From assembly GCA_017409205.1 (NCBI GenBank), contig JAFQTF010000051.1:1-37795 (forward strand): a stretch of 37,795 bases of DNA, read 5' to 3'. Source of the stretch: Oscillospiraceae bacterium (GTDB taxonomy: Bacteria > Bacillota > Clostridia > Oscillospirales > Oscillospiraceae). Positions within the stretch are counted from its first letter, which is position 1. Each line of letters begins with the position of its first letter. A program made the position numbers and the translations under genes. The notes below the pieces were generated by a model. The model did no database searches. It was not told the origin of the DNA and saw only the letters and a program-made list of their open reading frames with translations. Below, one piece after another: positions 1-2,429 of the stretch.

Positions 1-145
1 AAAATATCTGGTTGCTGTCTATCACTCCGGCACGGAGGATCTGTACCGCAGTACCCTGGATCTGCTGGCCTATAACAAGAAACGCTGCGCCGAGCTGGCA
101 GTAAAACGGGAGAAAGCCCAGGTACAGACACAGATGCAGCTGTAA
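1..145 (+). CDS. C-terminal 47 codons of an unrecognised element gene (partial)
   Basis: An open frame enters from the left edge and stops at TAA 143-145. The visible 47 residues contain a hydrophobic start (YLVAVYH), a central TLDLLAYNKKR stretch and a charged helical tail ending QVQTQMQL. No catalytic motif is visible and I do not recognise the family. It lies in the same orientation and directly upstream of the recombinase gene, separated by a strong terminator. It is therefore inferred to be cargo or maintenance DNA of the same integrated element. The function cannot be inferred from this fragment. Confidence 0.6.
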   Translation, partial: KYLVAVYHSGTEDLYRSTLDLLAYNKKRCAELAVKREKAQVQTQMQL

Positions 146-192: not shown

Positions 193-221
193 TTGCAATT
201 TTGTACTGCATCGTTTACAAT
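193..221 (+). promoter_or_regulatory. Likely promoter of the recombinase gene
   Basis: TTGCAA (193-198) and TACAAT (216-221) are separated by exactly 17 bp, a good vegetative sigma-A match. It lies about 50 bp upstream of the recombinase start. No sporulation-type promoter was recognised by eye. Confidence 0.6.
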
Positions 222-272
222 GTTATCTGTAATATATAGAAGTATATCAGATATGATTGATTGGAGGCAAGC

Positions 273-2429
273 ATGACATCAATCTACAACATAGCGGGTT
301 ATACCCGTATCTCTGTGGATGATGAGCAAACGAAGGACAATGTATCCATTGAAAACCAGAAAGCTATCATCGCAGATTTTGTCAAAAACAAATTTCCCGG
401 AAGCAGTCTTACCTTCTTCGAAGACCGCGACCGCTCCGGCTACACCTTTGAACAGCGGGAGGGCTATCAGGCCATGCGCAGCGGACTGGTGAGTCACAAA
501 TATGATATTCTCATTGTCAAGGACTTCTCCCGTTTCTCCCGTCGGAACTCCCGTGGCCTGGTGGAGTTGGAAGACCTGAGAGATGCCGGTGTCCGGATTA
601 TTTCCATTGGCGACGGCATCGACTTTCCCAATGATGATGACTGGCTGAAGATTCAGTTCCAGTTCCTCATCAACGAAATGCCTGTCACTGACACATCCAA
701 GAAAGTCAAAAACGTGATCCGCCGCCGTCAGCTGGACGGCGAATGGATTTGTGCTGCACCCTATGGATATATCATCAACGATTGCAATGAATTCGAGATT
801 GTTCCCACAGAAGCGGACATCGTCCGGAAAATTTTCCAACTTTACAATGTAGAAGGCTGGGGTTACAAAAAGATCGCAAACCATCTGACTGATCAGGGCA
901 TCCCCACGCCCCGGATGTGTGAGCAGATGCGCAAGGAATCCAAGAACAAACCCTATAACCGGAAAGTAAATGCCGCCTGGGCCATCGTCACGGTACAGGG
1001 TATTCTGGACAACGATTTTTACATCGGCACCTTCCGGCAGGCCAAGTACACCCGGTCAAAGATTAACGGTAAAGATGTGAAACGGGACGAGGGCGAACAC
1101 ATCGTCATCGAGAATCACCATCAGCCCATTATCGACTACCGCACCTTTGCCATCACCCGGGAGCTTCGGGAAAAGCGCACCCGCTCCAACTACCGGGGTG
1201 TGAAAAAATACGATAACGTATACTCCGGATTTCTGGAGTGCGGCGACTGCGGCAGCCCTATGTTCTCTCTGAGTCGTCCAGATCTTGCCGCTGCCTACAC
1301 CTGCGGCACCTATCATAAGCGGGGACGGTCCGGCTGCACCAGTCACCACATCCGGGTAGATACCCTGGATGAACTGCTCAGGACCTTCATTCGAAAGGTC
1401 ATGGAGAATTCTTCTGCCATGCTGGAAAAGCTGAACGCCGAACTGAGCCGGGAAAACGATGACATCGCAGAAACCGAGCAGTCTGCCGATCATCTGGCAG
1501 AGGTTCTGGCAGAACTCCAGGAGGAACTGAAAACCACCAAGCGCCAGCGCATCCGGGAGATCATGAAAAAACCAGAACAGGAAGCTGTTCTGGAGGGGCT
1601 GTATGATGAACTGGAAGCAGAGCTGATCCAGAAAATCGACGGCTTAAACCATCAGATCGACATGCTGGCCGACAAGCGCAACACCATCATTCTGGTGAAC
1701 CGCTCCGCCAAAACCACCATGGACGTATTCCGGGACATTTTGGAGAAAGAAGCCCTGGACCGGAATGACCTGGAACTGATCATCGACCGCATCAAGGTTT
1801 ACGAAGATCATCTGGACATTCAGCTGAAAGCGGACATCGACATTCTCTTAAAATGCGGTCTGGAGGGCCTTGCCGCAAATTTTAAGTCAGGCATCGAGGA
1901 TATCTCATTGACCCGTATCGTCCAGAAGGCAACCCACCAGAAGGACAAGGTCTTCGATGTCAATGTTATCAGTGAAGGCGACCCGCTGGAGATCTATACC
2001 GAAAAGGATGGCGGTGTGATCTTCCGAAAGTATTCTCCCATGGGAGATCTGCAGGAATTTGCTGCCCAGATGTGTGAATCCATTGGCTCCGCTACCGGCC
2101 ATATTGCCGCCATTGCCGACCGGGACAGCATCATTGCCCTTCATGGTGCCCCCAAGCGGGAGCTGATGGACAAGCCCAACTCCCCGGAGCTGGAGCGGCT
2201 CATGGAGCAGCGCCGCAACTACCTTTATCAGCCGGGAGAATCCCCCATCCCGGCATCCCACGACTCCGACAAATACCACCTGGGAGCCGCCGCACCCATC
2301 CTGTCTCAGGGAGACCTGATGGGCTGTGTGCTGCTGCTTCTGGGGGAGGGGGACGGCCCCCTGCAGGAATCCGATCAGAATCTGGCCCGAACCGCAGCCG
2401 GTTTCCTGGGCAGACAGATGGAAAGCTAG
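273..2429 (+). CDS. Large serine recombinase fused in frame to the C-terminal part of SpoVT
   Basis: The start is ATG 273, with GGAGG at 263-267; a TTG at 261 is in frame but overlaps this ribosome binding site. The product has 718 residues. The resolvase-type catalytic domain has the nucleophile Ser14 (YTRIS) and the KDFSRFSRRN motif near residue 83. A recombinase domain follows, then a zinc ribbon (Cys323, Cys326, Cys344, Cys355) and a coiled coil at about 390-480. Site-specific integration and excision is the family role. From about residue 568 (EGDPLEIYT) to the end, the protein matches the sporulation regulator SpoVT from about its residue 30: the end of the AbrB-like DNA-binding domain and the whole GAF-like domain (KYSPMG, GHIAAIADRDS, SPELERLMEQR). 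SpoVT is normally about 178 residues; 151 remain here and the first ~29 are missing. The simplest reading is that the element inserted into spoVT and its recombinase now borrows the host frame and stop codon. It could instead be a stable regulated-recombinase architecture. Confidence 0.88.
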   Translation: MTSIYNIAGYTRISVDDEQTKDNVSIENQKAIIADFVKNKFPGSSLTFFEDRDRSGYTFEQREGYQAMRSGLVSHKYDILIVKDFSRFSRRNSRGLVELEDLRDAGVRIISIGDGIDFPNDDDWLKIQFQFLINEMPVTDTSKKVKNVIRRRQLDGEWICAAPYGYIINDCNEFEIVPTEADIVRKIFQLYNVEGWGYKKIANHLTDQGIPTPRMCEQMRKESKNKPYNRKVNAAWAIVTVQGILDNDFYIGTFRQAKYTRSKINGKDVKRDEGEHIVIENHHQPIIDYRTFAITRELREKRTRSNYRGVKKYDNVYSGFLECGDCGSPMFSLSRPDLAAAYTCGTYHKRGRSGCTSHHIRVDTLDELLRTFIRKVMENSSAMLEKLNAELSRENDDIAETEQSADHLAEVLAELQEELKTTKRQRIREIMKKPEQEAVLEGLYDELEAELIQKIDGLNHQIDMLADKRNTIILVNRSAKTTMDVFRDILEKEALDRNDLELIIDRIKVYEDHLDIQLKADIDILLKCGLEGLAANFKSGIEDISLTRIVQKATHQKDKVFDVNVISEGDPLEIYTEKDGGVIFRKYSPMGDLQEFAAQMCESIGSATGHIAAIADRDSIIALHGAPKRELMDKPNSPELERLMEQRRNYLYQPGESPIPASHDSDKYHLGAAAPILSQGDLMGCVLLLLGEGDGPLQESDQNLARTAAGFLGRQMES
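1974..2429 (+). pseudogene. spoVT: 3' part of host spoVT, separated from its own start
   Basis: The codons from 1974 encode residues matching SpoVT from about position 30 onward. SpoVT is a forespore transcription regulator with an AbrB-like DNA-binding N-terminus and a GAF-like C-terminus. The GAF-like part looks intact and ends at a normal stop (TAG 2427-2429). The first ~29 codons are not in the window; by inference they lie at the far end of the element. As it stands this segment can only be translated as the tail of the recombinase. Confidence 0.8.

Follow-up and report, generated by a model that had tools for sequence, protein, structure and literature searches.

The closest precedent for the locus described here is gin, a 28.6 kb non-phage element that is inserted in gerE of Bacillus cereus ATCC10987, a gene acting in the mother cell; gin carries three recombinases and undergoes rearrangement in the course of sporulation (PMC5595907). 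The same paper describes skin in sigK and SPbeta in spsM, where a serine recombinase is present and the split sporulation gene is restored by excision (PMC5595907). Distantly related large serine integrases have been described to converge on one coding site, that of a prolyl isomerase, and competence genes are enriched as targets; spoVT is not named as a target in the main text of that study (PMC10083194). The integrative mobilizable element IME_Rho_tet from the gut targets small frames of the MAFF2 type and carries drug resistance cargo (PMC12904643). SpoVT is described as a protein under the control of sigma-G which acts in the forespore, and which is essential for sporulation in B. cereus and not in B. 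subtilis, of which a strain lacking SpoVT still makes spores (PMC5061766). At the locus analysed here a foreign element that encodes a serine recombinase very probably splits the sporulation gene spoVT.

The window, the whole stretch of DNA that was analysed (37,795 nucleotides), represents the whole contig G000:C39 of a fragmented metagenome assembly of 1.76 Mb which is 76.6% complete. A single open frame extends from an ATG at 273 to 2429, with an alternative TTG start at 261. The Pfam domains in this frame are, in order, Resolvase, Recombinase, Zn_ribbon_recom and SpoVT_C, the last with an E-value of 6.1e-38 at protein residues 592-717. NCBIfam model TIGR02851 (spore_V_T) aligned to the frame over profile positions 27-180 of 180, with a score below the full-length cut-off because only part of SpoVT is present. 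The open frame and the domain matches bear out the original prediction that a recombinase frame runs into SpoVT without a stop; the SpoVT part was likewise found, although its remaining length, put at 151 residues in that prediction, was measured as 150 (1977-2426). The junction is in frame at 1977 (GGCGACCC) and is followed by SpoVT residues 31-180, comprising the rest of the N-terminal DNA-binding domain and the GAF domain (SpoVT_C). The predicted structure of the whole fusion was poor (mean pLDDT 61, pTM 0.32), and the GAF part reached a block pLDDT of 80-93. The contig begins inside the element, and in this genome only the right end of the element is visible, with the 3' part of spoVT (Table 1).

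Table 1. Positions of the features at the right end of the element and in the adjoining part of spoVT.
Feature	Position in window	Strand	Remarks
Companion small protein, C-terminal end (last 47 residues)	2..145	+	2-142 is 62% identical to the homologue in locus L067 (alignment)
Promoter-like site of the recombinase, vegetative type	193..221	+	TTGCAA 193-198, 17-base spacer, TACAAT 216-221
Operator-like sequence	222..253	+	GTTATCT 222-228 follows the -10 box; putative function
Inverted repeat in the operator-like sequence	TATCTG 225-230 / CAGATA 248-253	+	
Large serine recombinase	273..1976	+	without its native C-terminal tail while integrated; Pfam and PHROG integrase family
Element-side left arm of the recombination site, TGTCAATGTTATCAGTGAA	1958..1976	+	within coding sequence; attR consensus, n=76
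Crossover core GGCGACCC	1977..1984	+	family consensus GGNGACCC; common to attB, attL and attR
3' part of host spoVT, residues 31-180, including stop codon	1977..2429	+	joined in frame to the recombinase

The SpoVT C-half was searched for in 37 genomes of the genus, the window's own included, and was found in 27 of them. Six of these (G000, G018, G019, G020, G023 and G026) have it in a fusion, in frames of 652-772 amino acids; in the other 21 it lies in frames of 171-241 amino acids, of which those of G002, G016 and G017 are interrupted near codon 10. Comparison with relatives lacking the element, as the original prediction had proposed, thus revealed empty sites with a full-length spoVT in the same genus. 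Five congeneric recombinases are 73-75% identical to that of the window. A scan of genome contigs with an alignment of the congeneric recombinases gave 187 relatives, and the best 80 of the 187 were kept. In 76 of these 80 loci the frame enters SpoVT at the same codon and stays open up to the SpoVT stop, and this recurrence excludes a chance fusion. The four exceptions are L102 and L139, which are cut by a contig end within SpoVT, L133, which is cut at the core, and L094, which continues into a different sequence. The fusion junction also occurs in records with isolate titles, including Agathobaculum butyriciproducens DSM 100391, Butyricicoccus pullicaecorum DSM 23266 and Pseudoflavonifractor sp. 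MSJ-30.

To place the fusion more widely, 394 genomes sampled evenly across the order were analysed, of which 36 contained a recombinase of this group (E 1e-60 or better). The recombinase frame is at least 700 amino acids long, which is fusion length, in 29 of the 36, most of these being judged by length alone; a SpoVT continuation or SpoVT match was confirmed in some of the 36. TIGR02851 matched 368 of the 394 genomes at E 0.001, with two over its cut-off. Scanning of the viral_contigs set gave no relative of the recombinase. The 183 plasmid records that matched were all below 60% identity, and 280 phage records matched; among the ten of these that were listed, two exceeded 50% identity, both unannotated faecal scaffolds. 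MT839487 (4.2 kb, recombinase match 74%) ends about 17 bases before the core, and in MT836658 (53.8%) the recombinase is itself fused to SpoVT.

The 5' half of spoVT was searched for with a 54-residue SpoVT N-terminal query in the six congeners and in 50 of the genomes of the 80 loci. Among the six congeners, the fragment lies on the contig of the fusion in G019 and G020 and on another contig in G023; it was not found with this query in G018, G026 and the window's own G000. In the 76.6% complete genome of the window the start MKATGIVRR... was not found by the N-terminal query, the best match being a 66%-identical paralogue on a different contig, and a search with the SpoVT C-half yielded the fusion copy as the sole one. 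The left frame MKATGIVRR.DDLGR...REGD with the shared core GGNGACCC, which had been expected beyond the window, is present in relatives and failed to appear in the window's own genome, in which no intact spoVT was found elsewhere either. Of the 50 further genomes, 43 have the 5' half; in G077 and G086 the match begins only near codon 10, and in G065 the fragment is cut off by the contig end. The query did not find it in G063, G073, G076, G080, G083, G093 and G100, seven genomes in all. No full-length SpoVT start beside the split gene was listed in the 43 genomes with the N-terminal query; the other matches (51-70% identity) look like shorter paralogues, and that in G071 is a degenerate remnant.

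Both halves lie on one contig in 22 genomes, where the 5' fragment is found beyond the opposite end of the element and the two cores are 6,802-80,676 bases apart (median about 20.3 kb); G414 is a single-contig genome carrying both. Joined, these same-contig halves give a full-length SpoVT, which supports the original prediction of a gene-splitting element in spoVT and runs against its alternative of homologues lacking a nearby 5' fragment. Translated halves were joined at the Gly-Asp pair that the core encodes, and the product measured 175-180 amino acids in 39 of 41 valid rows; the remaining two (189 and 192) are longer because of an untrimmed upstream start. The codon phase at the core is the same in both halves in 41 of 41 valid rows, so that on paper excision rebuilds the frame. 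These 41 rows represent 38 genomes, as three rows come from G090 and two from G103, each of these genomes supplying a single 3' partner; the row of G023 was excluded, its 5' half having been mispaired with the fused half of L112, and L182, L184 and L188, in each of which the tail described below is visible, were left out of the joining.

Past REGDP the 5' fragment runs into a tail which typically ends near MLDLAKRxGW. A conserved tail was found in 40 of the 53 attL loci scanned, and a tail was later seen in 8 more; the 13 loci left out of the tail analysis comprise 11 without the start pattern, a paralogue (L143) and one at a contig end (L177). The 40 tails measure 24-28 residues, and 32 were left after removal of near-duplicates. 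Entropy in these 32 was 0.85, 0.83 and 1.12 bits for the three codon positions, and 1.88 bits, near random, after the stop. Third positions are also low in the first five codons (about 0.57 bits on average), as expected because this is the recombination site. A few tails are diverged, among them those of L145, L184 and L189; L145 belongs to G060, whose recombinase is closest to that of the window. The tail being kept as protein, the native C-terminus of the recombinase would matter in at least one state. Conservation alone does not decide through which product selection on the tail acts, the recombinase being more likely than the SpoVT(1-33)-tail peptide.

For comparison of the attachment sites, 21 attB (of 24 loci looked at), 40 attL and 76 attR sequences were used, and the core common to all three sets is GGNGACCC. 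To the left of the core attL resembles the host and to the right the element, and attR is the mirror image. On inspection the two element arms (types TGTCAATGTTATCAGTGAC and GTCACTGACATCATTGACA), each of them coding, make up an imperfect inverted repeat. attP and attB are distinct and have a short core in common, as for large serine recombinases. At the core the phase of the attR recombinase matches that of the attL tail, which implies that in the circular form recombinase and tail would be one gene, with attP inside it. Neither a circular form nor a rejoined attP turned up among the relatives, plasmid, phage and viral records included. The contigs of L248 (MT839487.1), L133 and L177 (G065:C25) end at or just before the core, as is usual when two junctions coexist, and possibly reflect mixed integrated and excised populations.

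We consider it very probable that an integrative, probably mobilizable, element splits spoVT, that its attP lies inside its own recombinase gene, and that the two genes exchange their 3' ends. The circular element would carry attP within the 3' coding end of the recombinase gene, and the recombinase would cross this site with spoVT codons 31-33 (core GGNGACCC). As the reading phases of the two genes agree at the core, integration would exchange their 3' ends: the recombinase would lose its tail of 24-28 residues and gain the last 150 residues of SpoVT, and from the spoVT promoter a SpoVT(1-33)-tail peptide of about 57-61 residues would be expressed. While the element is integrated, SpoVT is predicted to be off, because the cut falls inside the DNA-binding domain, which we take to be an AbrB-type fold. 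On excision, spoVT and the native recombinase would be regained together. At the level of sequence, the junctions, the shared core, the matching phase and the horizontal spread described below are directly apparent.

Not all related recombinases fit this arrangement. Three relatives (L094, G208 and G272) lie at sites other than spoVT with the Gly-Asp pair kept at the junction, as would be expected of secondary sites; G208 and G272 carry a spoVT of normal length elsewhere. In G443:C13 (L239) a 48%-identical recombinase ends at a stop codon of its own, about 75 bases short of the same spoVT core, and no fusion is formed, showing that targeting of spoVT is separable from fusing and that the fusion is not required.

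A second insertion spot in spoVT lies near codon 10, just before DDLGR, where the inserted DNA ends in ...TTGACANNNNNN. This pattern was seen in L258 (G002:C33), L259 (G384:C21), L012, L021, L024, L142, L190, L191, L212, L217 and L250, and in 5 of 61 genomes of the genus. Two loci that were extended outwards contain three tandem serine recombinase genes, an arrangement that recalls gin, and 6 of 6 of these genes encode Resolvase and Recombinase domains. Both insertions occur in one spoVT in L190 (G077), L191 (G086), L263 (G012) and L250 (G065), with the codon-10 junction followed about 23 codons on by the codon-33 junction; L250 and L263 have a degenerate tail. About 1.5 kb downstream, G012 carries a further spoVT whose N-terminus is complete. 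In L230 (G071:C1), a degenerate second spoVT start near 620-710, some 640 bases upstream of the genuine 5' half, is perhaps the scar of an earlier insertion.

The divergence of recombinases and of joined spoVT halves was compared in 2,850 pairs, of which 160 have recombinases differing by less than 0.35 at fourfold sites; L109 was left out of the spoVT selection comparison. Among these 160 close pairs, which overlap, the joined spoVT halves are more diverged than the recombinases in 150 and less in 10, which argues for horizontal spread of the elements between hosts. The spoVT half thus belongs to each host, related elements having entered different hosts, and the spoVT halves had diverged before insertion.

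Next to its recombinase the G414 element encodes a MobA/VirD2-type relaxase (PF03432, E 8.2e-37), an AAA_25 protein and a RhuM protein, and the 30 kb element of G020 encodes a PF03432 relaxase and an AAA_25 protein, with a NikA-like match below cut-off. Two proteins of the 6.8 kb G068 element were scanned; they are AAA_14/DUF4143 proteins and neither is a relaxase. MT839487 carries a Mob_Pre relaxase, of which homologues were found upstream of the recombinase in 7 of 76 loci, five of them of 179-315 amino acids with at least 59.7% identity; two relaxase queries gave homologues in 7 and 2 of the 76 upstream regions, each of at most 5 kb. From these genes we infer that the element is probably an integrative mobilizable element moved by conjugative mobilization. 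By inspection, the cargo of the G020 element (L035, L034) resembles a cell-surface polysaccharide locus. One cargo protein (L034:1145-2854) has weak phage-tail and BppU_N matches, so that some parts may be of phage origin. The flanking genes of G020 and of the window were compared with the surroundings of spoVT in relatives, without a useful match. Homologues of the companion small protein of about 87 amino acids are present in 68 of 76 regions upstream of the recombinase, the window's included, and as frames of 70-130 amino acids in 67 of 80 loci. It had no Pfam, NCBIfam or PHROG match, and its predicted structure (pTM 0.47) had no PDB fold match at E 0.001. The protein is a candidate recombination directionality factor.

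What the exchange of tails does for the element can be read in more than one way. We attach nearly even weight to a plain parasite that knocks out spoVT, leaving its host with poor or no sporulation while transfer balances the losses, the swap of tails being a by-product. Horizontal spread agrees with this, as do the N-terminal search of the 43 genomes, where the split gene was the only one listed with a full-length spoVT start, and the spores still made by a B. subtilis strain without SpoVT (PMC5061766). Conservation of the tail as protein and the phase kept in all 41 valid joined rows argue against this reading. A second, tentative and on balance doubtful reading is that the exchange works as a state switch, in which the native tail would direct the recombinase to integration and the GAF tail of SpoVT would restrain it or turn it towards excision. 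If so, the recombinase would know the integrated state from its own C-terminus, and in a sporulating host release of the element could depend on the state sensed by the GAF domain. A recombinase C-terminus that reports integration would be a new and directly testable form of direction control in serine integrases.

Less probable than either is a programmed element of the skin type, whose recombinase would be switched on in sporulation and whose excision would rejoin spoVT where it is needed. The target is a late sporulation regulator, the spoVT halves are in phase, and the precedents in sigK, spsM and gerE use serine recombinases. Moreover, Spo0A_C was over cut-off in 19 of 19 genome entries (two of them repeats), weaker in G000, G009 and G023. 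Sigma-G-like matches were near full length in 14 of the 19 entries (two being repeats), none reaching the cut-off of the model; they were partial in G019 and G020, and none was as strong in G000, G023 and G060. By gene content most carriers thus look like spore formers. The promoters speak against this programmed excision. When spacers of 15-19 bases were allowed, a TTG box followed after exactly 17 bases by TACAAT was present upstream of the recombinase in 35 of 76 regions, a count made without a shuffled control, and the other 41 did not match this pattern; in the 35, (A/G)TTATCT mostly follows TACAAT. This layout is presumably vegetative, of the sigma-A type. Upstream of spoVT, split and whole genes together (71 regions), it is not enriched (1 of 71 vs 3.4 in shuffles). 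A strict sigma-G pattern was found there in 6 of 71, and a looser sigma-G/F-like pattern, written post hoc after viewing the sequences, in 47 of 71 vs 2.8 in shuffles. The recombinase therefore does not look sporulation-controlled, judging from these upstream regions. Movement between hosts also disagrees with a programmed element, as does the action of SpoVT in the forespore (PMC5061766), where excision would leave the spore without the element. The balance leans towards a mobile element that would excise independently of sporulation.

The promoter region of the recombinase (216-253 in the window) shares CAATGTTATC with the left arm of attP (1958-1976). Among the 35 promoter regions, 7 share at least 9 bases with the arm vs 1% of shuffles (means 7.2 and 5.9), which is only a hint of autoregulation because the 35 promoters are related. 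Self-regulation of the recombinase via CAATGTTATC is possible.

We reject as very improbable that recombinase and SpoVT have been fused into a new, stable protein with a function of its own. The frame does reach the SpoVT stop in 76 of 80 loci and the GAF part models well, yet the model of the whole is poor, spoVT 5' halves persist, and the SpoVT half does not track the recombinase in divergence, so that the fusion would be made anew at each insertion. An assembly or binning chimera, for which the fragmented metagenome assembly of the window might be blamed, deserves practically no weight, being refuted by the same junction in isolate records and by the single-contig genome G414 with both halves.

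Many gut commensals probably pass between hosts as spores, and an element that switches a spore regulator off, and possibly restores it, bears on their spread. Several carriers are records of cultured strains. In the open-licence literature we found no paper that deals with both spoVT and a serine recombinase, nor, judged by titles, spoVT as an integration target. As far as searched, the kind of gene-intervening element is known, and spoVT as target and the reciprocal exchange of tails are new.

Two systems have an attachment site placed in a comparable way. In mycobacteriophages with integration-dependent immunity, attP lies inside a phage gene and integration changes the C-terminus of a protein; there a repressor is shortened, whereas here the recombinase swaps its tail for a host domain. 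Archaeal integrases of the SSV1 type have attP inside the tyrosine integrase gene, which is split by integration. The position of attP in the integrase gene is shared with the spoVT elements, but the serine recombinase described here keeps its domains and gains one from the host. With the integrases of PMC10083194 the spoVT elements have in common a recurrent coding target in a single gene. They resemble IME_Rho_tet in having a relaxase together with a serine recombinase and in recurrent insertion into one type of small gene across gut bacteria, and differ in the exchange of tails, which is not mentioned for IME_Rho_tet in the text of PMC12904643 available to us. A serine recombinase and a split sporulation gene are shared with skin and SPbeta as presented in PMC5595907, restoration of the gene being predicted here from the sequence; unlike these prophages or prophage-like elements, the spoVT elements have relaxases in two that were scanned and spread between hosts. 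As in gin, described in the same paper, serine recombination splits the short gene of a late sporulation regulator, and excision of gin restores the gene. Unlike gin, the spoVT element has one recombinase, its target acts in the forespore, its excision is predicted from the sequence, and its attP would lie inside the recombinase gene.
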